DNA of 37,367 bases from a virus: the IMG/VR virus record IMGVR_UViG_3300037492_000052, positions 1-37,367 of that record, one strand, 5' to 3'. The position numbers were made by a program, and so were the translations under genes. Shown here in pieces: positions 17,454 through 29,965 of the stretch. Below the pieces are notes generated by a model. That model worked only from the letters and a program-made list of their open reading frames with translations. It did no database searches and was not told the origin of the DNA. Within the stretch, counting starts at the first letter, position 1; every line of letters begins with the position of its first letter.

Positions 17454-20400
17454 ATGGTAGATGAATACGAAGGTTTGCCGCCACCTCCGGCTGATGACGC
17501 AGGGGGACTCCCCCCTGCTCCCGCCGACGACCTCCAGGGTCTCCCGCCGCCCCCGGCAGATGATATGGATGGCGGGCTTCCGCCGCCGCCCGCCGATGAT
17601 GCGGAGACGGAGGTTCAGGGTCGCGCTCGCGTTGCTGCTATGCGCAAAGCTGCGGGGCAAGTTCCAGTCCCTACTCAGGCTGATATAGATCGTAGACGAA
17701 TGGGTGGGCCTGGGTCAGACCCCACTCCGTCGGAATCAGATATGTGGCGAGCTTCTCAGTGGTACGGTGAACAGAAGCCTATCGTTCGTGGTGTCACAGA
17801 GGCGATGGTTAATGGATGGGTTCCGACTCAGGAAGTTGCTAATCAAGCCATTAAGCATATTGATCCCGAGGACAGAGAAGCCTTCCTGAAGTCAGTTCAG
17901 TTTTATGCGGCCAGCAAGCAGAAGGCAAATCAACGCGGCGCTATTACTGGTGCTGTAACGAGTCTTGCCGCTGGTGCTGCTGATCTAGGCGCAGCTAGCG
18001 AAGATATCCTACGCACTCTCGGCGCTCCAGTTACGAAGGAAGATTTGACTGACGATCAGAAGATATTTGCTCGCAAGGTTTACAATACTTGGAATTCCGA
18101 GAATCCAATCACTGACCCAGAAGCATCCTGGGTTACTCAAGGGGCTCATGGAGTTGCCAGGATGGCTGTCCCGATAACGGCTGGTGTCTTGGCTGCTGGT
18201 GCTGCTGGCCCCGCTATGGGCGCAATGGGAACTGCTCCCATCGCGCAAACTGCCGTCAAGGGCGCGCTCGCAGTTGCTCCATTCACTCCCGACATGCGCA
18301 ACGCAGCTTACGACACTGCCATCGAGAGGGGTTCAACTAAACAGGAAGCGGAGATTATTGCGAATGTAATCACTGCTGTTGGTAGCGCGCTGTATGCCGG
18401 TGTTGCTCACAAGTTGACTCCAGGTTGGCTAATGGGAACCAAGGGTGCCAAGACGATTACTGAGGCGTTTATTAACGGTGCTAAGTCTTGGGCTGGCGGT
18501 ACGGCTACTATGGGTGGTGTTGCTTCCGTAGAGGAAGCTATCCAGCAAGTCGCAGAAGGTAAACTTGACGCCAATAAGGTAATTTCCGCAGGTTTCGAGA
18601 GTGCCAAAGAAGCCGCGAAGTTTATGGCGTGGGTCGCTCTTCCGCGAACTGTCGGCATGGCTCTCGGAGTGAAGAAAGATATTCCGCCACTACCCAGTAA
18701 TCTATCACCTAAAGTTCGGGCTGAGATTAAACGTGCTGGTGAACTAGGTGATGTTCCTTCTCGCAAACAGTTTGGTGAAAAGGGATGGATGCTCGATTTG
18801 CCGCAGGGTGTAGGGAGTATGCGGTGGCGTGCGAATGTACTCAAAGCTTGGTCTGCTGAGATACGCAATCGAGATGCCGCTACGTTTCGGGAAACGGAAA
18901 CGCTGAAGGAAGTCATGCCCGAACCGATCTCTCCCGAAACGCTTGCTGATATTCCGAAGCGCGAGGGGGTGGTTGAGGGTCCTGTTCCTGTTCGGCCTGA
19001 GCCGGTTGAAATGGCTCCTGTCGATCCCACCAAGGGTTCGACAATGAAGCACGCCAATATCGATGAACTATGGACCAGCGTTGGAAGGTCAATTCCTGAT
19101 GAATATATTCCGCAGCGAGATCAGAGGAATCTCGATCAGGCCCAGGCGGAATTGAATGCTAATCCCAATTTCGTTGATGATCTGCTTGCGAGATACGAAA
19201 AGAAACCCTTCCCGCCATCCACGATAGAGGGTTCCGCTTTACTGATTCGCAAGAACGAAATGAATCGTCAGCGCAGGAAACTGTCGGCGGATCAGAGTGC
19301 GGCGTTCGAGTCCGGTGATGCTGGCGCTGCTGATATAGCCACTGAGGCTCTCGCAAACATTGACGGCAAACTCTACGAGTACGATACCATCTTGAGGGGA
19401 ATGGGTTCTGAGCGTGGCAGTGCGCTGAGAAATCAAAGGATATTTCTCTTTGAGGATTTCACAATCGAGGGGATGACTGAGAAAGTTCGCAACGCCAAGG
19501 GTGGCGCTCCACTTACTCCGCAAGAGAACATTCAGATTGCCGAGTTGAGTCGCAGACTCCAAGAGGCGGAAGCGAAACTAGAGAGAATGGACCTGGATAC
19601 GAAGGTTAATTCTGTCATTAACGAATCGAAAGACAAGCGGAGTCTATTCGTTAAGGTTGCCCAAAAAGATAGATTCGTCGCAGCCAAGAAAGAACTCGAT
19701 CTCGCGTGGGACGAATTCAAGTTGACGATGCCGGGTGCTGAGTCAGTCGTTAAATTCGCTAAGGGTGAAGAGGGGACACTAAAGATTGGCGGGGGCGCTG
19801 GAGATTGGGATGTCTTTAAGGTCGGTAAGGTAAATGTAGTAAGAAATCCGACTACTGCTGACATTCGAGAAATGAATGCAGCGTTTCGTGAGAGATGGCC
19901 CAATGCTCCAACTGGGTCAATAAAGGTACGCAGTACATTCGATATGGAGGGCAATAAGTACAGTTGGATGTCTGATGCGTCTCACGATCAAGTTGAGCCA
20001 GAAATCAATCGGAGGTATAGAACTGAAACTGATCAGAATCAATACTTCAGCGGCAAGAAGTCAGTAGATTCGGCTGTAAAATTCGCTAAGGGTGGCGAAT
20101 TACTTAAAGGCGAGTCTGGCGCTCTCAATGTTGACATGCTGAAGGCTGGTGCAAAACTCGCCAAGGCTTACATTGATCTCGGCGTGGTTTCCTTCAGCGA
20201 ATTCTACGAAGTCTCGCGCGAGTATCTTGGCGGCAAGTCGGAAATCTACCGCGACACACTTCTCGAAGCGTGGGATAAGGTTAAGAAGGAAAGTGGTATT
20301 CCACTCTTGCGAATGGAACCTGGGGATCGCGACTCCATGATTCGAGTGGCTAAGCGGTTGACTCGCTCCGTAGTCCAGAGTGGGATCACTGACCGCGATA

Positions 20401-22745
20401 AGGTTGTGGCTGAAGTGTGGAAGGAAATGAAGAACATAATTCCTGATATCACTGAGCGTCAGGTCAAGGAATCAATTACGCGATATGGTATCAACCCAGA
20501 ACTTCCTTCCGATGCTGTAAGCATCGTTGCGGCAGATTTAAGTGGACAACTTTTGCAACTGCTGAAGCTAGAGGACATGGCAGCCGGTAGGGCTCCGCTG
20601 GCCACTGGTGCGCGCCGAGAGATTAGCCAGGACGAGCGCCAGTTAATTAAGCAAGTCAACGAAGCGAAGAAGAGAGGGAACTTTCTGAGTGTTGACTTCG
20701 CCAAGCAACTCAAGACAGCGCTTGAGTCATCGAAAACCGCAGTCAGGAATTCGTTGACTGATATGGCTAAGGAAATCAAGGACCGAGAGAAGATCGTCAG
20801 GGAACGTCGCTCGCTTACTCCTGACGCTGAGTTGATTGCATTGAAGGCGAAGCAAGTCGAGATGCGCAAAATTTGGAATGACATCTTCCCCAAGAAACCG
20901 ATGTCCACGGAGCAGAAGGTAGCCGCGTCCGGCAGAGCGTTAGACCGCTATATCGCTCAACTTGAGAGCGAAGTAAGGACGCTCCAGGCTGGTGGTGTCG
21001 TCCAACCGGGAGAGAAGGCACCGCCGATCTCGACGCCTGAGTTGGAAGTAAAGCGTGCGAGAATCGATGTCTTGAAGGGACAACGCGAAGTTCTGAAGGA
21101 AGCCGCCAATCCCAAGATGTCCAAGGAAGAGCGTGACAATCTTAGTTACAAGAATAGTTTACGCAAGCGATTGAGCGATTTGCAGCAGAAGATCAGCACG
21201 AAAGATTTCTCAGAGAAGATCAAGAAAGAAAAGGTATATGACAAAGAGACGGTTGACCTTCGCTTCGAGATGGAGCAAACGAAGGCTCGTTTCCAGAAGA
21301 TGGTTGATGCTAACAAGAAGAAACTCAGGGGAACATTGCAGCGAGCGTGGGAGGTAATCCCAGAGGGATTAAACTTCTCTAGGGCTGTGCTTACGAGCAT
21401 GGACTTGTCGGCTGTGTTGCGCCAGGGAGCGGCAACTACATTCAGTCATCCTATCTTGACGTTGCGCGCCACACCAGAAATGATCCGATCATTCGGTTCT
21501 AGTAAGGCTGCATTTCGAGCGAAGTTGGAACTAGAGGCGAGAGAGAACAGCCGCAACGGCTTATACAGGGTCTCGAAATTAGCCCTTACATCAGTCGAAG
21601 GTTCGTTGACTCACCAAGAGGAAGTGTACTACGGATCGTGGGCGAAGAGAGTCCCTGGTGTTGCCGGTTCTGAGCGTGCCTATGTCGGATTCCTTAACCG
21701 TATGCGAGCCGATGTGTTCGATTCTATGGTCTCTTCGTTAGGTAGAACTGGGAAAGTCACACACGGCGAAGCCAAAGTAATTGCTAACTGGGTGAATGTG
21801 GCTACTGGTCGTGGTGATTTCGGTATGATGAATTCAGCCTCATCGGCAATGGCAACAGTTTTCTTCGCTCCGCGCTACGCGCTATCTCGCTTCCAACTCC
21901 TGTTTGGTCAGCCAGTGTTAGGCATGTGGGGTAAGGATACACTTCATGGAACCATGCGCGCTCGTAAGGCTGTGGCCATGGAGTATGGCCGGATGTTAAT
22001 GGGTCTCGGTATGGTCTATGGACTCGCCCTTTTGTATAATGAATTCAATCCCGACGATCCGATTATATTTGAGGGGAACTTCCAATCATCGGACGCTGGA
22101 AAGTTACGGATGGGCGATACTCGAATTGATCCGATGGCTGGCGTAGCTCAGGCAACCGTCTTGCTCACTAGAATAGTGACTGGTAAAACCAAGGGATCGA
22201 CCGGCAAGATCATTCCGATATCTGGAGATGATGTTCCATTCGGTGGCATGACCATCCCTGGAGCTATCGGTAATTTCCTACGAAACAAATTGTCTCCTGG
22301 AATCAATCTCGCCTTGGAGATCAGGACTGGAAAGACACCCGTTGGTGAGCCAACTACTGGACTGGAATCTCTCGGTCGCAATCTCTTGCCGCTGTCGTTT
22401 CGTGATATCTATTCAGCGATGCAAGATCAGGGTGCGACTAAGGGAACTGCGCTGACTATGCTGATTCTTCTCGGAATGGGATCGCAAGTTTACGAGGGAG
22501 CAACCAAGTCTAAATTCGCTGAGCATATCACGGAGCATTCCGAACTCTACGGCAGAAACGAAAAGACGCATGAGATATTCGATTACAGGGCAGAGAACGA
22601 GCAAGTCGTGGCGCAGGCCCAGAAGCTGGGATACTCACTCGCCGATTTAGAGTCTGCCATGGTAGCCAAGATGAGGGAGGATAGACAAGGCCAGGAAGCC
22701 ATCGACAATGCACGGTCTCGGCTGCGTAGACGGTTCCGGCAATAA
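17454..22745 (+). CDS. Large internal/ejection protein
   Basis: The product has 1763 residues. Four copies of GLPPPPADD-like repeats occupy residues 7-49. Several hydrophobic Ala/Gly-rich helices lie between about 160 and 410, suggesting membrane insertion. A coiled coil lies near 685-735. Two VKFAKG motifs (about 763 and 872) flank a 109-codon module. A second charged helical region runs about 1000-1300. The C-terminal region (about 1310-1680, with FAPRYALSRFQLLFGQP and a hydrophobic MLMGLGMVYGLALLY) is of the type annotated as large polyvalent protein-associated or internal core protein. It is probably carried in the capsid and injected with DNA. A tape-measure role is less likely because no tail-tube genes are seen. 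No lytic active site is evident. Confidence 0.65.
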   Translation: MVDEYEGLPPPPADDAGGLPPAPADDLQGLPPPPADDMDGGLPPPPADDAETEVQGRARVAAMRKAAGQVPVPTQADIDRRRMGGPGSDPTPSESDMWRASQWYGEQKPIVRGVTEAMVNGWVPTQEVANQAIKHIDPEDREAFLKSVQFYAASKQKANQRGAITGAVTSLAAGAADLGAASEDILRTLGAPVTKEDLTDDQKIFARKVYNTWNSENPITDPEASWVTQGAHGVARMAVPITAGVLAAGAAGPAMGAMGTAPIAQTAVKGALAVAPFTPDMRNAAYDTAIERGSTKQEAEIIANVITAVGSALYAGVAHKLTPGWLMGTKGAKTITEAFINGAKSWAGGTATMGGVASVEEAIQQVAEGKLDANKVISAGFESAKEAAKFMAWVALPRTVGMALGVKKDIPPLPSNLSPKVRAEIKRAGELGDVPSRKQFGEKGWMLDLPQGVGSMRWRANVLKAWSAEIRNRDAATFRETETLKEVMPEPISPETLADIPKREGVVEGPVPVRPEPVEMAPVDPTKGSTMKHANIDELWTSVGRSIPDEYIPQRDQRNLDQAQAELNANPNFVDDLLARYEKKPFPPSTIEGSALLIRKNEMNRQRRKLSADQSAAFESGDAGAADIATEALANIDGKLYEYDTILRGMGSERGSALRNQRIFLFEDFTIEGMTEKVRNAKGGAPLTPQENIQIAELSRRLQEAEAKLERMDLDTKVNSVINESKDKRSLFVKVAQKDRFVAAKKELDLAWDEFKLTMPGAESVVKFAKGEEGTLKIGGGAGDWDVFKVGKVNVVRNPTTADIREMNAAFRERWPNAPTGSIKVRSTFDMEGNKYSWMSDASHDQVEPEINRRYRTETDQNQYFSGKKSVDSAVKFAKGGELLKGESGALNVDMLKAGAKLAKAYIDLGVVSFSEFYEVSREYLGGKSEIYRDTLLEAWDKVKKESGIPLLRMEPGDRDSMIRVAKRLTRSVVQSGITDRDKVVAEVWKEMKNIIPDITERQVKESITRYGINPELPSDAVSIVAADLSGQLLQLLKLEDMAAGRAPLATGARREISQDERQLIKQVNEAKKRGNFLSVDFAKQLKTALESSKTAVRNSLTDMAKEIKDREKIVRERRSLTPDAELIALKAKQVEMRKIWNDIFPKKPMSTEQKVAASGRALDRYIAQLESEVRTLQAGGVVQPGEKAPPISTPELEVKRARIDVLKGQREVLKEAANPKMSKEERDNLSYKNSLRKRLSDLQQKISTKDFSEKIKKEKVYDKETVDLRFEMEQTKARFQKMVDANKKKLRGTLQRAWEVIPEGLNFSRAVLTSMDLSAVLRQGAATTFSHPILTLRATPEMIRSFGSSKAAFRAKLELEARENSRNGLYRVSKLALTSVEGSLTHQEEVYYGSWAKRVPGVAGSERAYVGFLNRMRADVFDSMVSSLGRTGKVTHGEAKVIANWVNVATGRGDFGMMNSASSAMATVFFAPRYALSRFQLLFGQPVLGMWGKDTLHGTMRARKAVAMEYGRMLMGLGMVYGLALLYNEFNPDDPIIFEGNFQSSDAGKLRMGDTRIDPMAGVAQATVLLTRIVTGKTKGSTGKIIPISGDDVPFGGMTIPGAIGNFLRNKLSPGINLALEIRTGKTPVGEPTTGLESLGRNLLPLSFRDIYSAMQDQGATKGTALTMLILLGMGSQVYEGATKSKFAEHITEHSELYGRNEKTHEIFDYRAENEQVVAQAQKLGYSLADLESAMVAKMREDRQGQEAIDNARSRLRRRFRQ
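17472..17600 (+). repeat. Four Pro-rich GLPPPPADD repeats
   Basis: Residues 7-15, 18-26, 29-37 and 41-49 of the large internal protein repeat GLPP[PA]PADD, with spacings of 11, 11 and 12 residues. Codons vary between copies, so this is conserved at protein level rather than a fresh DNA duplication. Confidence 0.85.
19752..20094 (+). repeat. 16-bp direct repeats flanking a module
   Basis: AAATTCGCTAAGGGTG occurs at 19752-19767 and again at 20079-20094, exactly 327 bp (109 codons) apart and in frame, inside the 1763-residue gene. The enclosed segment has a small domain with RNPTTADIREMNAAF and NKYSWMSDASHDQ. Confidence 0.8.
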
Positions 22746-22804
22746 GATGCCATTGAACTAAGGATAACTCATGTGTATAATGAGGGGTGAAGGGGACATT
22801 CATT

Positions 22805-23089
22805 ATGGTTACGGTACTAGCGATACTTACTGGCGTTCTTGCCGTCTTGGCAATCGTTTCTTCGGCAGTCAGAACACTGCTATCCTGTATACCTCCACTT
22901 GGATGGCTAATCCTTGTGTGCGTACTCGGAGGATGGTATCTTGGCTCCAGCGGGGGATGCAGCCTCGGATGCCAAGAGCGAGAGAGAATCCTTCCTATCC
23001 CGAGAGTTTTACCCAGGCCCAGATTTAGAGAAACTGAGCCAGAGATTCTAATCCCAGTTTCAGAGGAGATGTCATGTTGGAAGTCGTGA
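22805..23089 (+). CDS. Small two-helix membrane protein (holin-like)
   Basis: The product has 94 residues from ATG 22805, which has AAGGGGA eight bases ahead. An in-frame GTG at 22787 is the alternative. Two transmembrane segments are expected, at about residues 2-22 and 31-50 (PLGWLILVCVLGGWYLG), followed by a Cys pair (CSLGC) and a Pro/Arg-rich soluble tail. It opens the envelope cassette and overlaps the next gene by 16 bases. Size and topology fit a holin or pinholin, but no holin family is recognised. A second frame with its own ribosome site starts at 22771 (see findings). Confidence 0.55.
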   Translation: MVTVLAILTGVLAVLAIVSSAVRTLLSCIPPLGWLILVCVLGGWYLGSSGGCSLGCQERERILPIPRVLPRPRFRETEPEILIPVSEEMSCWKS

Positions 23090-23409
23090 TGAGCGGTACA
23101 GTGATGTGGGTTGCGGAGCGAGTGATTGTCCTTGCGATCATCGTTATCGCGTTGTCGTATGCGTGGCCCTATCTCAAGACGCTCGTGTCGGGACTGTTGT
23201 CTAAGGTGACGAGCGCAGGAACATCATCTACGGTCGTGACTGCTATCGACAGTGCGGTGATAGTTGTAGACGAGTACCAAGCGCGCATTGCGTTGGCTAC
23301 TGCTGCTCGACTGTTTGAGAAGCACGGTAATCTTCCGGTTGCTAGCGCGTTGCGTAGTTACGTCGTTGACGCGGTTGCTTGGTCCGACACTCCCACAACT
23401 GGAGTCTAA
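23074..23409 (+). CDS. Single-pass membrane protein (holin candidate)
   Basis: The product has 111 residues from ATG 23074, with AGAGGAG in front; ATG 23089 is possible. One transmembrane helix lies near residues 11-31 (VIVLAIIVIALSYAWPYL), followed by a helical domain (about 50-100, TAIDSAVIVVDEYQARIALATAARLFEKHG). It lies between two other membrane proteins. Its size and topology fit a class III-type holin or a membrane regulator. It has no recognised family. The stop is one base before the next ATG. Confidence 0.55.
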   Translation: MLEVVMSGTVMWVAERVIVLAIIVIALSYAWPYLKTLVSGLLSKVTSAGTSSTVVTAIDSAVIVVDEYQARIALATAARLFEKHGNLPVASALRSYVVDAVAWSDTPTTGV

Positions 23410-23410
23410 G

Positions 23411-23824
23411 ATGACGCGAGGAAAAGCCCTACTCGTTTTGATCGCGCTGTATGTCTTGCTGAAGATATACGGCAGCGGTGTCATTCCCATTCCGATTCCT
23501 CCCGCACCTACCCCCGTCACGATGGCTGTTGTCATTTACGAGAGTGAGATCGGAAAGGGATTGACCTTCGACGAGAGCGAAGTCGTTGCTGGCAAGCTGG
23601 CCAATGAGATGCGCAAGGTGAATAAGTTTCGCGCGCTCGACAAGGACCAACTACCTGAGGACATGGTGATCCTGCGCGACATTGCAAGGGCGGGTCAGAA
23701 TGAACCGCAGCGTTGGATACCGTGGCTATTCATCTTTCACGGAAAAGATGTCTCATGGAGTGGGAGACTTCCCGTTCCTGAATCTGCGATAGTTGACCTC
23801 GTGAAGCAACAGGGAGGAATCTAG
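23411..23824 (+). CDS. Membrane-anchored periplasmic domain protein
   Basis: The product has 137 residues. The same frame extends upstream to 23288, but the ATG at 23411 follows the previous stop. A hydrophobic anchor at residues about 5-20 (ALLVLIALYVLLKIYG) is followed by a Pro-rich link (PIPIPPAPTP) and a soluble domain. The domain pattern (VVIYESE, FRALDKDQLPED, IPWLFIFHG, GRLPVPESAIVDLV) recalls a thioredoxin-like fold that has lost its CxxC. This is an inference from the strand and helix order. It precedes the papain-like peptidase gene by two bases. Confidence 0.55.
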   Translation: MTRGKALLVLIALYVLLKIYGSGVIPIPIPPAPTPVTMAVVIYESEIGKGLTFDESEVVAGKLANEMRKVNKFRALDKDQLPEDMVILRDIARAGQNEPQRWIPWLFIFHGKDVSWSGRLPVPESAIVDLVKQQGGI

Positions 23825-23826
23825 TC

Positions 23827-24645
23827 ATGGGCGAATTGCATATTACCCCCGAAAACTACCTGCAATACACGGGCGCGGGCCAAGACAGAATGTGGTGGGG
23901 AGGGTGGCGTCACTTAAATGCCATGCCTCGTCGCAGTCCGTATGGTTCCTTGTCATTCGCTCGGCCGCTGGCTCAGGCAATTCCGATCATTCCGCGTTCT
24001 GAATGGAAACGAATGATTGCTGGTAAGGACGCTAATAATTCATGGATGAGATACATTAACGATCAAGCAGGTGTACCATGCCTCGACCAAAACGGTCTGG
24101 GATACTGTCACGCATACGGAACAGTGGGCGCTGGTATGACGGCCAGGGCTGTTCATGGTCTTCCGATGATCCACCTAAGCTCCGAGAGTGTCGGGGGGAT
24201 CGTTACGGGGTGGAAGAATCAAGGCGCGATGCCCGACGACGACCTTGCCGTGTTCGTTAGGTATGGAGCTTGCGCCCAGTCCTTCATGGACAAGGAACAT
24301 TCCCTGAGACCTAGCCTATGGAAACCGGGCTGGGAAAAGGATGCGCTTAATCACACGGTTGTTGAAGCGTTCGATCTCGACCCGACTGATATCTTCGGTC
24401 AGTTGATGACTTGCGTGCTAATGAACATACCGACTGCCGATTGGTATAATTGGTGGGGTCATCATATTCAAGGTCCGCTTCAAGCGAAATTCATGGATGG
24501 AAAATACTGGTTGCTTAAACGCAACTCATGGGGAGAAAGCTACGGCGAGAATGGCTATTTCTGGATGGCCGAGGGCTACGGTCGCGGACTTGCGAATCCA
24601 GATGGCGGTTTTGGTATTGGAGTAATGAAACCAAGTGAGGTGTAA
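23827..24645 (+). CDS. Papain-like (C1A) cysteine peptidase
   Basis: The product has 272 residues. The catalytic Cys94 sits in QNGLGYC with Gln88 six residues before it, the exact papain Q19-C25 spacing for the oxyanion hole. His212 or His213 (WWGHH) is the likely general base. Asn233 lies in KYWLLKRNSWGESYGENGYF, the hallmark Asn-Ser-Trp-Gly segment. No classic propeptide or signal peptide is visible; residues 1-65 may act as a short prodomain. The Cys, His and Asn triad and Gln are all present, so it should be active. The position among membrane proteins points to envelope attack or processing of a late protein, rather than head maturation. The substrate is unknown. Confidence 0.85.
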   Translation: MGELHITPENYLQYTGAGQDRMWWGGWRHLNAMPRRSPYGSLSFARPLAQAIPIIPRSEWKRMIAGKDANNSWMRYINDQAGVPCLDQNGLGYCHAYGTVGAGMTARAVHGLPMIHLSSESVGGIVTGWKNQGAMPDDDLAVFVRYGACAQSFMDKEHSLRPSLWKPGWEKDALNHTVVEAFDLDPTDIFGQLMTCVLMNIPTADWYNWWGHHIQGPLQAKFMDGKYWLLKRNSWGESYGENGYFWMAEGYGRGLANPDGGFGIGVMKPSEV

Positions 24646-24646
24646 G

Positions 24647-24961
24647 ATGTGCTGTAAATCGAGAAGGAAACCGAGTTGTTTCGAGGTAGTGTTATACGTC
24701 GCTCTATTCTGCTTGATAATTGCGCTGCTGAATAGAGTGAACTGCTCTCCGGCTCCGGTTCCGTGTCCCGTTCCTGCTCCGTGTCCGCTGCCGGAACCAT
24801 GCCCGGCCCCTGAGCCCGCTCCAGCCCCTACGCCTGCGCCTGAGCCCGTCCCGGTGCCCGAGCCTATTCCGACACCAGTTGAGCCCGAGCCGTGCCCTGA
24901 GCCGTCTCCGTGCGATCCGTGCCCGGTTGACGAATGTAGCAGAGGGGGGTGCCCACTCTAA
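24647..24961 (+). CDS. Membrane-anchored Pro-rich protein (spanin-like)
   Basis: The product has 104 residues from ATG 24647. The in-frame start at 24635 lies inside the previous gene. A basic Cys-containing N-terminus (MCCKSRRKPSCF) leads to a hydrophobic helix at about 13-30 (VVLYVALFCLIIALLN), then NCS followed by about 65 residues of Pro/Glu/Ala/Cys repeats (PAPVPCPVPAPCPLPEPCPA). The Pro-rich stalk after a membrane anchor resembles Rz1-type outer spanins, but there is no canonical lipobox and it is longer than usual. A stalk that crosses the periplasm is a fair reading. The stop overlaps the next start (TAATG). Confidence 0.6.
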   Translation: MCCKSRRKPSCFEVVLYVALFCLIIALLNRVNCSPAPVPCPVPAPCPLPEPCPAPEPAPAPTPAPEPVPVPEPIPTPVEPEPCPEPSPCDPCPVDECSRGGCPL

Positions 24962-25428
24962 TGACGCTATTTCAGGTCCCACCGATTGTTCCGAATCCTC
25001 CGGTATATCCGCCATACTACCCGCCATCCCCAGACGGTGGTGGTTTCTGGAACCCGGCGAATTGGGCACCGTTCGTAGAGAAGATCGGAATACCGGGTTT
25101 CTTCGCTATCGTGCTGTTCGGTATCTTTATCTACTTCGTGTGGAAGGCTCTTACGCAATGGGATAAGCATCTCATTCGCCAAGAGAGACTCATGGGTTCT
25201 CAACTGGTACTTTGCCGGCAAGTTCATGGTCCGGGTGGAACAGCGAACGTGAGCGACTTCCGCGATGCAGGGAGAGACATTGCTGGAGTGTTGCAGGATA
25301 TGGGCGATGGAATTAGCGAAGAGACAGGCGCTAGTATCAAACCGAAACTAGAAAGACTGCTCGATAGATTGCATAATTCTCCTCCACCGCTTCCCTCGAT
25401 TAACGACATTCAAGAAAGGGCGAACTAG
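24961..25428 (+). CDS. Single-pass membrane protein with helical tail
   Basis: The product has 155 residues, read from the ATG overlapping the previous stop; a GTG at 24949 is in the same frame. The Pro/Tyr-rich N-terminus (PPIVPNPPVYPPYYPPSP) is followed by a transmembrane helix near residues 43-66 (IPGFFAIVLFGIFIYFVWKALTQW). A basic helical segment (DKHLIRQERLMG) and a predicted amphipathic C-terminal helix follow (about 95-150). Paired with the Pro-rich protein before it, it could be the inner-membrane partner of a spanin-like complex. No family is recognised. Confidence 0.55.
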   Translation: MTLFQVPPIVPNPPVYPPYYPPSPDGGGFWNPANWAPFVEKIGIPGFFAIVLFGIFIYFVWKALTQWDKHLIRQERLMGSQLVLCRQVHGPGGTANVSDFRDAGRDIAGVLQDMGDGISEETGASIKPKLERLLDRLHNSPPPLPSINDIQERAN

Positions 25429-25429
25429 A

Positions 25430-26200
25430 ATGAGGGCGACTAGGAATATCTTAGTATTGTATATTACGTTCGTTCTACTTCTCGCATGGTATTCGTGGCC
25501 TTCTGGAATACCATACGCGCATCTCCAGAATATCACTGTGAAAGTTGAGTCAGGTAACGCAATAGGAACTGGCGTTATCGTGACTCGACAAGTGGGAGAT
25601 GTTACGCGGTCCTATGTTTGGACAGCGGGGCATGTGGTAGAGAACATGCTTAGGGCAGATGGGACATTTAGTCAAGTCGCTGTGTCCTGGGAAGTACGCG
25701 AGAATGGGCAGTTCGTTGAAGAGGTGAAAATTCCCGCGAAGGTTATCGCGTACAGTGGTCCAGAGGATGGGGAGGACCTAGCATTGTTGGAAATTCTCCA
25801 GGACAATTTATGCACTCTCGATGTGTCAGCGAACTTCATTCCCAGTGACGGCATTCCAGCCATTGGGACCGAACTCGTGCATGTGGGATGCACAGTTGGG
25901 CTCTACAATTCCGTCAGTCTCGGTATAGTCTCGCAGACAGATAGGACACTAGGCGAGAGTTGGGGAACATTCGATCAGACTTCCGTCATGGGATACCCCG
26001 GCTCTTCCGGTGGCGGGGTCTACTTGACGGATGGTCGCTGCATTGGACTGTTGACCAGAGGGGCCGGAGCCGGGCTCAACTTCGTTGTGCCGGTGCGTAG
26101 AATTTCAGAGTGGGCCATGGATACTGACATCTTATGGGCTCTTGATCCCAGCATTCCTGTTCCACTCGTGCGGGCTTCGACTGAGTTGGAGCAGCAGTAG
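25430..26200 (+). CDS. Membrane-anchored trypsin-like serine peptidase
   Basis: The product has 256 residues. An N-terminal uncleaved anchor lies at about residues 6-20 (NILVLYITFVLLLAW). The S1/trypsin_2-type domain holds the full triad: His68 in VWTAGHVV, Asp116 in GEDLALLEI, and Ser193 in GYPGSSGGGVYL. An oxyanion-type glycine lies before the serine. The C-terminal part (about 205-250) completes the second beta barrel. The anchor would place the active domain outside the inner membrane. It is the last gene of the late cassette and is followed by a terminator. The nature of its substrate (holin, envelope protein or virion protein) is not shown by sequence. Confidence 0.85.
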   Translation: MRATRNILVLYITFVLLLAWYSWPSGIPYAHLQNITVKVESGNAIGTGVIVTRQVGDVTRSYVWTAGHVVENMLRADGTFSQVAVSWEVRENGQFVEEVKIPAKVIAYSGPEDGEDLALLEILQDNLCTLDVSANFIPSDGIPAIGTELVHVGCTVGLYNSVSLGIVSQTDRTLGESWGTFDQTSVMGYPGSSGGGVYLTDGRCIGLLTRGAGAGLNFVVPVRRISEWAMDTDILWALDPSIPVPLVRASTELEQQ

Positions 26201-26233: not shown

Positions 26234-26260
26234 GGCCCGGCAAGTCTGCGGGCCTTTTTT
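26234..26260 (+). terminator. Rho-independent terminator closing the late block
   Basis: GGCCCG (26234-26239) pairs with CGGGCC (26249-26254) around a nine-base loop, followed by six T residues. It lies 33 bases after the serine-peptidase stop and 12 bases before the stop of the convergent gene. The reverse strand lacks a T tract, so it acts mainly on rightward transcription. Confidence 0.85.
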
Positions 26261-27262: not shown

Positions 27263-27555
27263 TCGCTATACTCCCGGAGGTCTCCGTTGCGCCAAATTGC
27301 CTTTTCTTCAACCACGTCCATGATCCTACGTCGCATCTCAGTCTCTGCGTCTCGTAGTACTGCCAAGGCTCGACTCACGGAATGGTACGACCACCCCTCC
27401 TCGGGCTTCAGGGTAGTGGCAACTATTCGAGTGATGATGTAGTTGACGATACCGGGACGCTTCAGAACGTCGGGCTCCATCATTACTATCTGCTCCGTCA
27501 ATTCGTGAAGATACCCGTTGATTCTCGCACGCTGTTCACTCTTGATGTACGGCAT
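27259..27555 (-). CDS. DUF6899-type small protein
   Basis: The product has 98 residues from ATG 27555, with GGAG in front; the frame extends upstream but those codons overlap the metallopeptidase gene. It begins MPYIKSEQRARING and ends with YHSVSRALAVLRDAETEMRRRIMDVVEEKAIWRNGDL, the helical pattern of the phage DUF6899 family (MPYI..E.R at the start, E.RRR..D..E..K...NGD at the end). Function unknown. Its stop overlaps the next ATG by ATGA, and its start overlaps the preceding gene by 20 bases. Confidence 0.68.
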   Translation of the reverse strand: MPYIKSEQRARINGYLHELTEQIVMMEPDVLKRPGIVNYIITRIVATTLKPEEGWSYHSVSRALAVLRDAETEMRRRIMDVVEEKAIWRNGDLREYSE

Positions 27556-27856
27556 TCTTTTCTCCAAAATCTCTGGACCAGGAATCGTAAACTTCCGCGA
27601 ATAATACCCCCCAGGGGCCATCATGCGTGTAGGCTTGCTGAATGGCCAGCACATGCGCCCACTCGTGGATTAGTGTGTCCATCTGACCAACGCGGGGCTG
27701 ATTAGAGCCAACTCCAATGCGATATTCACCCGAGCCATTAAATCGAGTTATACCGCAAGTTTTCTTCATTGGGTATCTTCGCACGATTACCTTGCCGTTG
27801 ACGGGGAATGTTTTCCTTAACATACCGATCAATTTTCGCCACTCTTTCGTGTTCAT
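27536..27856 (-). CDS. HExxH metallopeptidase-like protein
   Basis: The product has 106 residues. A zinc-ligand motif H64-E65-W-A-H68 (DTLIHEWAHVL) is followed by H78-D-G-P-W-G and E88, candidates for the third ligand. Short zincin or SprT-like proteins with HEWAH..H.GPWG occur in many phages and plasmids. No signal peptide is present, so action in the cytoplasm is expected. It overlaps the DUF6899-type gene by 20 bases and the diphosphohydrolase-type gene by one (TAATG). The substrate is unknown. Confidence 0.65.
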   Translation of the reverse strand: MNTKEWRKLIGMLRKTFPVNGKVIVRRYPMKKTCGITRFNGSGEYRIGVGSNQPRVGQMDTLIHEWAHVLAIQQAYTHDGPWGVLFAEVYDSWSRDFGEKNAVHQE

Positions 27857-28280: not shown

Positions 28281-29333
28281 CTATTTCCTCTTCGGTGGCG
28301 TAAGGAAAATTGGAGTGGCTAATGTCATTCCGTATCGTCGATCAATGACGATGAATGTTTGAGTCGGTGCTTGGTATTCTGCCTTGATGAACAGACTATA
28401 CTCACTGTAGCCCATTAGGCTTCCACAAGATACCCACTTAGGATAGCCAAGTAGGAAGGTGTGCCAGTGTCCGAAAATATCAAAATCGGCGGGACTAACC
28501 TTATCCCATTGTGAGATAGACTTGTTGACTGGTATGGTGAGTCCCCCGACACCTCCTTGATATCGCAACCCATCCCCATGATGGAAGCGGACTTTCCTAC
28601 CCATGATCGTCTGAGTGTTGTGGTATCCATCCCCGACGTAGAATGCGACTCGCTTGTGTCCTTCATACAGTTTCTCCAGCGTCTTATACAAGAGCCACTC
28701 GTAGCTGTTCTTGGCGCTCGTCTTGATTCGCATCTTCTGAGTTGTACGACCGTGATTTCCGCAAGAGGTTGGAATCGCAATCGGCAACTTCGTTTCCTTG
28801 AGTAGCATGTCGATGCCAGAACAAATCTGATCGCGCAGAAATACGCATGTCTCAGTGGGACTTAACTCGTTAGTCTCAGACAGGTCCTCATGGATACTAC
28901 CGGACATGAGATCGCCAAGTAGCGGGTGCCAGATTTCGACAACAGGAGCAAGGTGATTCTGCCATTCAATCAATTCGATGATCTTGGAATAGAATCGCTT
29001 AATGCGATACTCGGCTTCCTTGAGATCGAATGAATTTTTTCCGTTTACGGCATTCTTGAATACATGCTCTTCGACGTGCCAATCGGAGGCTGGCACAACA
29101 ACGGCAACACCTTCGGATTTCGACCTCTTCATCGACTCAAATCGTCGCATCGCTGGTTCGCCGGTGATGGACAGCAACGCATCTAGGCGTTTCTCTGACT
29201 CAACGGCGGAAGCTATGATTCGTTTGTTCTGCTTCCTGAGCGAAGCAGCGTCATCAGTTGCCTTAGCGAGCTTGACCTCGACGGGCACCTGTTCGGCGTT
29301 CGCAACTAGCTCTTGGGGTTTACGTCTTGGCAT
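28281..29333 (-). CDS. Calcineurin-like metallophosphoesterase
   Basis: The product has 350 residues. Residues 1-55 are a charged helical region. The metallophosphoesterase core has SDWHVEEH with Asp84 and His86, GD at 140-141, GNH at 192-194, HHGDG at 251-255 and GHWH at 288-291, so all the usual metal ligands are present. The GHWH motif is normal for this superfamily. Phage members may act as exonucleases or DNA repair phosphoesterases. The long N-terminal helix is extra. It lies between a small HTH-like protein and the nucleotide-pool genes. The enzyme is probably active, but its substrate is unknown. Confidence 0.82.
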   Translation of the reverse strand: MPRRKPQELVANAEQVPVEVKLAKATDDAASLRKQNKRIIASAVESEKRLDALLSITGEPAMRRFESMKRSKSEGVAVVVPASDWHVEEHVFKNAVNGKNSFDLKEAEYRIKRFYSKIIELIEWQNHLAPVVEIWHPLLGDLMSGSIHEDLSETNELSPTETCVFLRDQICSGIDMLLKETKLPIAIPTSCGNHGRTTQKMRIKTSAKNSYEWLLYKTLEKLYEGHKRVAFYVGDGYHNTQTIMGRKVRFHHGDGLRYQGGVGGLTIPVNKSISQWDKVSPADFDIFGHWHTFLLGYPKWVSCGSLMGYSEYSLFIKAEYQAPTQTFIVIDRRYGMTLATPIFLTPPKRK

Positions 29334-29565
29334 TATACATTTCCCTCATGGTATCCTTGATGGTAGTGATACCAACAAGTAGGTGTAATTCGTTCTTTAG
29401 CGCGCAGGAAACGGAGTGGAAGGTCGAAACTCCAGTCCGTTTCATTGCCTCGATAACTTCTTGGATATACAGCCTATCTTCACGAGAGAGTTTATCTATC
29501 CAATTCACTGGCTTCGTTCGACTAACAGCAACATTTACTAATTCTTGGGCGGAAGTTCTCTTCAT
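29320..29565 (-). CDS. Small helix-rich protein, possibly DNA-binding
   Basis: The product has 81 residues. It is basic at the N-terminus and predicted to have four to five helices. KLSREDRLYIQEVIEAMKRTG could be the first part of an HTH-like unit, with STFHSVSCALKNEL as the second. It overlaps the metallophosphoesterase start by 14 bases. There is no recognised family. A small transcription factor or replication accessory is a weak inference. Confidence 0.6.
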   Translation of the reverse strand: MKRTSAQELVNVAVSRTKPVNWIDKLSREDRLYIQEVIEAMKRTGVSTFHSVSCALKNELHLLVGITTIKDTMREMYNAKT

Positions 29566-29578
29566 TGGATTCTCCGGG

Positions 29579-29965
29579 CTATTTGATCCTTGTAATCTCT
29601 ATCATAACTCGCGGGTTGTCTTTGTCAACAGCCAAATCGGGCATTTCGCGTTTCATGTGATGGATGTCGTCGTCGGCCACTAGCCCGGCGTCCACTATCC
29701 CGTCGTATACGGCCTTGAGGGACCCGGCAGCGTTGTCAGGATCGAATCTATTGCGTCCCTTCTTAAAGAACGTAGCTTTTACCCCCACGACTCCCCACGG
29801 TGCAGAATCGACACCCTCGGCCTCTACGGCCTCGCGGGCGAGGCGACGGTATTTCTTAGTCGCCGCTGCCTTCATCATCCTCCCTCCGATACTTCCGATT
29901 GTGCAGTTGGGGGATAGGATTGCATTTGGAAGAGGCAGGGCAATGGTTATTGATTCGGGCGTCAT
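29579..29965 (-). CDS. RusA-like Holliday junction resolvase
   Basis: The product has 128 residues. The RusA signature is present: Arg73-Phe-Asp75-Pro-Asp77-Asn78, then Lys84, AVYDGIVDAG (Asp88, Asp92) and ADDD (98-100). The two acids of DPDN match the RusA Asp70 and Asp72 positions, so it should cut four-way junctions as a dimer. The N-terminal PLPNAILSPN matches the family start. It overlaps the primase gene by ATGA and follows it in transcription, consistent with late processing of replication intermediates. It has no signal peptide. Confidence 0.8.
   Translation of the reverse strand: MTPESITIALPLPNAILSPNCTIGSIGGRMMKAAATKKYRRLAREAVEAEGVDSAPWGVVGVKATFFKKGRNRFDPDNAAGSLKAVYDGIVDAGLVADDDIHHMKREMPDLAVDKDNPRVMIEITRIK

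Follow-up and report, generated by a model that had tools for sequence, protein, structure and literature searches.

A late phage cassette of two peptidases and a thioredoxin-fold protein, and its possible part in host lysis

To our knowledge, a peptidoglycan-cutting enzyme is used by all double-stranded DNA phages in which lysis has been examined closely, and we know of no tailed phage that lyses its host by proteolysis alone. Lysis genes are seldom placed among early genes or before the terminase gene. The cassette analysed here lies at 22805-26200 of the window, by which we mean the whole IMG/VR record under study (linear, 37,367 bases), itself part of a phage of about 48-53 kb. Like a holin-endolysin-spanin cassette, it lies late, encodes several small membrane proteins and a hydrolase without signal, and has tightly coupled genes and a terminator; unlike such a cassette, it carries two proteases and a thioredoxin fold, has no recognisable muralytic enzyme and does not significantly match holin or spanin families. 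The literature searched, most subscription journals lying outside it, yielded no account of such a cassette. The component families are known; new, as far as tested, are the way in which they are combined, the conservation of this combination, the fusions in either order and a clade without recognisable muralytic enzymes.

Gene content of the cassette

In the window the late operon, on the + strand, meets the replication genes of the - strand at about 26.2 kb, and the cassette is the final unit of that operon. A first-pass annotation, made from the sequence alone, had described seven tightly coupled genes followed by a terminator, and both elements were found, the seven open reading frames being separated by -1, 1, 2, 1, -1 and 1 bases. 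The features are the following.

17454..22745, + strand: 1763-residue protein, upstream neighbour of the cassette, with distant homologues in relatives; probably an ejection protein
22753..22781, + strand: sigma-70-like promoter match (TTGAAC-17-TATAAT, 10/12) upstream of gene 1; the count of such matches in the region is not above chance
22805..23089, + strand: gene 1, 94 residues, small, two predicted membrane spans, holin-like layout
23089..23409, + strand: gene 2, 106 residues, a single membrane span at the N terminus, helical tail; possible other start upstream, at 23074
23411..23824, + strand: gene 3, 137 residues, N-terminal membrane anchor and predicted thioredoxin-fold domain, no cysteine
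23827..24645, + strand: gene 4, 272 residues, C1A papain-like cysteine peptidase without signal or anchor (Gln88, Cys94, His212, Asn233)
24647..24961, + strand: gene 5, 104 residues, membrane anchor and Pro/Cys-rich tail (13 Cys)
24961..25428, + strand: gene 6, 155 residues, one central membrane span
25430..26200, + strand: gene 7, 256 residues, membrane-anchored trypsin-like (S1C/HtrA-like) serine peptidase (His68, Asp116, Ser193)
26234..26260, + strand: intrinsic-terminator-like GC stem, then six T, closing the late operon; from sequence and folding (z -1.8), absent from the output of a terminator consensus scan

Four to five membrane-anchored proteins had been proposed; the anchoring holds but the count does not, as at least one span is predicted (Kyte-Doolittle) in six of the seven genes, two in gene 1 and one each in genes 2, 3, 5, 6 and 7, leaving the papain as the sole product without a span. 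Gene 5 is anchored and lacks a lipobox, and its tail contains about 50 residues of Pro-x repeats. Compared by eye, it resembles the anchor-and-linker part of thioredoxin proteins in two relatives, G005 and G016, minus the thioredoxin domain. By eye and position, gene 6 has a counterpart in the cassettes of the same two relatives, whose first gene resembles gene 1 on the same two grounds only.

The papain-like peptidase was borne out by a match of gene 4 to PF00112 in Pfam (E 6e-5, 23.6 bits against a cut-off of 20.7) and by intact catalytic residues. The spacing of six between Gln88 and Cys94 is that of papain, and His212 and Asn233 are also in place. Unlike typical members of family C1A, gene 4 has no detected inhibitor propeptide, and an N-terminal extension of about 70 residues precedes its papain-like core. 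The catalytic Cys and His are invariant in five homologues, at identities as low as 22%, though no equivalent of the Asn could be made out in the G005 copy; the papain and trypsin homologues aligned for catalytic residues share only 18-30% identity with the window proteins. The papain-like core is conserved at about 60% identity to the window protein in two phages that are otherwise unrelated, G001 and G002, and a dN/dS of about 0.06 between these two copies indicates purifying selection. Single-sequence pattern scans for close relatives of the papain, the trypsin and the ejection protein returned two papain loci and nothing else; papain matches in bacterial genomes were mostly short, fell in the NSWG region and were taken as chance.

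The G002 papain (L003 2128-4014, IMG/VR 3300035698_009707) is interrupted by a 349-residue intein exactly before the catalytic Cys, which is at the same time the +1 splice residue; the intein was assigned by motifs and has no solved relative by sequence. Because of this position, the G002 papain should be inactive until splicing. Adjoining the papain in the unrelated phages is an anchored thioredoxin followed by a CAP/SCP-like domain (L002 9015-10376, L003 4978-6042), the thioredoxin being assigned by Pfam for the L002 copy and the CAP/SCP label by eye.

The trypsin-like peptidase also proved as the first reading had it, with a predicted span, a match of gene 7 to PF13365 (Trypsin_2, E 6e-14, Pfam) and an intact triad (H68/D116/S193) that is invariant in nine homologues. 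The Trypsin_2 domain, the His-Asp-Ser triad and an N-terminal membrane anchor as in DegS recall the S1C peptidases HtrA and DegS. However, no PDZ domain was matched in Pfam, the scores for the DegP and DegS families are well under their cut-offs (42 bits against 416 and 26.5 against 423, respectively), and in some relatives the trypsin is fused to a thioredoxin. The dN/dS of trypsin-thioredoxin, 0.11, again points to purifying selection. In the annotated phage collection the trypsin had five matches, all weak (<30%), and four of these five are annotated as host-like degS/degQ.

A thioredoxin component had been overlooked. The AlphaFold2 model of gene 3 (pLDDT 62, moderate) has the order beta-alpha-beta-alpha-beta-beta-alpha, nearly all of its top Foldseek matches are thioredoxins, and structural alignment (VIA-align) gave Z 9.0 over 88 residues with an rmsd of 3.1; gene 3 is thus a membrane-anchored thioredoxin fold, as modelled. 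It lacks the CxxC redox motif and any cysteine, and therefore cannot on its own be a redox enzyme, while cassettes of relatives carry thioredoxins in which CxxC is present. Homologues of gene 3 occur in G001, G002, G005 and G016. Since the papain and gene 3 are the only genes that the window has in common with the unrelated G001 and G002, the pair forms a unit travelling together.

Muralytic enzymes, holins and spanins across the clade

The capsid gene was used to collect relatives, and its alignment led to more than 80 contigs. Ten relatives were taken as closed genomes, of 48.6-53.1 kb, from direct terminal overlaps of at least 93 bases at 90-100% identity. Comparison with the annotated phage collection gave nothing for the papain, the ejection protein or the capsid, and on this sequence comparison the clade of the window appears to be absent from that collection. 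Matches of terminase, recombinase, primase or cassette proteins gave no informative signal for host assignment.

It had been stated that the window contains no muralytic motif, and none was found among its proteins scanned with Pfam and/or PHROGs, nor, at the sensitivity of these profiles, in the 1763-residue protein, one of the places where a cell-wall hydrolase would have counted against the first reading. The unseen part of the genome, another such place, was covered through the ten closed relatives, in which none was recognised either; this supports a cassette that lacks a muralytic enzyme. Neither the 77 proteins of G003 and G004 nor another 118 from eight records, most of them cluster representatives, contained a muralytic Pfam domain; the lysozyme, amidase_2, SLT, NlpC/P60 and M23 families were found in 0/18 records, the control genomes being positive. 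These scans covered short open reading frames in part and known families only, so that an unknown fold or family would escape them. Genes 1 and 6 of the window gave no holin family match, although gene 1 has two spans. Among relatives, the matches to holins (DUF7940, E 0.008; PHROG/Pfam holin, E 0.1-0.3) and the Rz-like matches in G003 (E 0.03-0.04) are individually insignificant. As to a spanin in the window, gene 5 has an anchor and a Pro-rich tail but no lipobox.

Two further genes were observed outside the cassette. A protein of 106 residues with an HExxH motif (LIHEWAHVLA) is encoded at 27536-27856 (-) of the window. At least eight relatives have a homologue, SprT-like matches occur among relatives' proteins, and the product would be a third, minimal metallopeptidase-like protein. 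The gene at L034 8869-9822 (-) (G003 28869-29822) is the probable origin of a D-Ala-D-Ala-ligase-like ATP-grasp Pfam match among the G003 and G004 proteins, and its product is possibly an envelope-modifying phage enzyme.

Composition and position of the cassette in relatives

Three types of cassette were distinguished. The first, present in the window, G005 and G016, has a C1A papain and a gene-3-like protein. The second (G004, G013, G014, G015, G017 and G021) has a permuted-papain-like and C39-like pair, C39 being a label given by motif with no profile match, together with a weakly thioredoxin-like protein. The third (G019, G020, G022, G023 and G024) has a lipoprotein trypsin-thioredoxin fusion. 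G003 carries the opposite, a thioredoxin-trypsin fusion, and both orders are therefore seen across the clade; in G018 there is a papain-like protein that is divergent and was assigned by eye. When compared by profile with CxxC thioredoxins, the thioredoxin-like proteins matched weakly, though those of the second type were in register at the cis-Pro region (P 0.026 and 0.13).

The permuted-papain-like family has invariant His and CSE motifs and weak profile matches to 3kw0 (E 0.0024) and YaeF (E 0.0019); a structure model was unusable (pLDDT 32). Its members resemble the permuted NlpC/P60 enzymes (YiiX/YaeF, C92-like) in lacking a signal and in the permuted order His ... Cys, a likeness of sequence with weak matches, and the window phage has no such protein.

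A trypsin-like peptidase is present in 10/10 closed relatives, as well as in G013, G014, G023 and the window, and is missing only from G005 and G018, both incomplete records. The trypsins of the clade are predicted to be anchored, secreted or lipoproteins, whereas the C1A and permuted-papain-like enzymes have no export signals. On the primase tree the sister of the window is G003 (support 100/100); as the two differ in cassette type, the module is exchanged.

Position also varies. The cassette of G004 is located entirely on the early strand, within the replication-side transcription unit, which in G014 and G016 contains the trypsin gene; in both of these a secreted trypsin-like gene is found among replication genes, near a Cas4-like exonuclease, and not in the late cassette (L133 9799-10683 in G016, L128 18186-19136 in G014). 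In G013 and G015 the trypsin is upstream of the terminase gene. In eight relatives an integrase (tyrosine-recombinase-like) directly follows the cassette, often with a Cro-like HTH gene (e.g. L158 16765-18238), so that some members of the clade may be temperate.

Candidate roles and comparison with known systems

The papain identity of about 60% in unrelated phages, the low dN/dS and the invariant catalytic residues argue that the cassette is more than chance. Gene content, intact catalytic residues, the modelled thioredoxin fold, conservation across the clade and the lack of a recognisable muralytic domain in the ten closed relatives are what the analysis shows. The cassette is likely to be an envelope-acting proteolysis and thiol-redox module. 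That it stands in for endolysin-based lysis, the most probable of its purposes, is a more tentative proposal, to which we give a little short of an even chance. A protease-based lysis or envelope role had been suggested before; it stays the leading reading, no muralytic enzyme having been found, but is weakened by G004, G014 and G016, since lysis alone does not predict a cassette or a trypsin on the replication side.

According to the scheme we propose, the module would be made late in infection, and the small membrane proteins of genes 1, 2 and 6 would make the inner membrane permeable or organise it. The papain, having no signal, would be held in the cytoplasm and let out when the membrane is permeabilised, like holin-dependent endolysins, while the anchored trypsin, acting from the periplasmic side, would break down load-bearing proteins of the envelope until the cell opens, its substrates perhaps being held or opened by the thioredoxin-fold partners. 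By analogy, signal-less papains and envelope-bound trypsins would correspond to the released and the envelope-bound enzyme that accompany a holin. Periplasmic location, timing, substrates and lysis as the outcome are what we infer. For cassettes of the second type lipid attack may be another route, since phospholipases that attack membranes, such as the effector Tox-Act1, occur among permuted papain-like enzymes (PMC12994826).

The alternative that survives best, although we consider it rather unlikely, is envelope remodelling or superinfection exclusion, in which periplasmic proteases and thioredoxin folds would trim or disable receptors, incoming ejection proteins or host stress sensors and lysis would depend on an unrecognised gene. 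The make-up of the cassette switches among close relatives as arms-race cargo does, and the eight integrases near the locus, several with a Cro-like HTH beside them, are consistent with exclusion; trypsin (G014, G016) or the whole cassette (G004) among early genes, and trypsin before the terminase gene (G013, G015), would suit exclusion or host takeover. On the other hand, a trypsin in every closed genome is odd for optional cargo, the trypsin of the window comes last in the late operon, and lysis would stay unexplained in all ten genomes.

It is improbable, in our judgement, that the papain-superfamily enzymes are themselves true endolysins that cut the peptides of peptidoglycan or the lipids of the membrane, trypsin and thioredoxin being accessories. 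The C1A family consists of classical protein peptidases, and we know of no member acting as a peptidoglycan hydrolase. The lack of export signals in the C1A and permuted enzymes, the weak matches to 3kw0 and YaeF and the substitution of C1A, permuted and C39-like enzymes for one another at one locus would agree with such a role, as would the superfamily of permuted papain-like enzymes, members of which cut peptidoglycan or lipids (PMC3142127, PMC12994826). However, no papain-superfamily enzyme was detected in G019, G020, G022, G023 and G024, and NLPC_P60 itself is absent from the 18 records.

Host-derived morons for the quality control of envelope proteins or the release of nutrients, with no tie to lysis or exclusion, are very improbable: the S1C/HtrA-like peptidase and the thioredoxins do look like envelope quality-control proteins, but no closed genome lacks the trypsin, the genes of the operon are tightly packed and catalytic residues are conserved. 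Scarcely any weight falls on proteases of the virion, maturing capsid or ejection proteins or crossing the envelope within the particle (the first-pass annotation had offered virion-protein processing as its alternative, and a prohead-protease reading was weighed and rated low), as, although the cassette is directly downstream of the putative ejection protein, a signal-less papain could be packaged and the window proteins scanned included no recognisable prohead protease, the trypsin is predicted to be membrane-anchored, lipoprotein or secreted, the position of the cassette is not tied to the capsid genes, a separate scaffold-like gene precedes the capsid gene in all relatives and capsid maturation offers no obvious task for the thioredoxin partners.

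Returning to lysis by proteolysis, ten complete genomes without a recognisable muralytic enzyme suggest that the hosts may be opened in an undescribed way. These genomes, all with the trypsin and most with detectable thioredoxin-fold membrane proteins, invite a test of whether proteolysis alone can open some bacteria. If true, this would bear on which hosts depend on protein over peptidoglycan for envelope strength, and would offer a source of new envelope-active enzymes. We regard as possible but doubtful the wider idea that a whole clade of tailed phages has swapped peptidoglycan-cutting lysis for a proteolysis and thiol-redox system of papain-superfamily hydrolase, anchored trypsin and thioredoxin-fold proteins, perhaps because disulfide-linked protein stabilises the envelopes of its hosts. 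A proteinaceous, disulfide-stabilised envelope has been described in Planctomyces maris (PMC3035269), and peptidoglycan is now known in planctomycetes too (PMC5814848). A protease together with a thioredoxin is what the opening of such an envelope would need; the comparison serves as a lead only.
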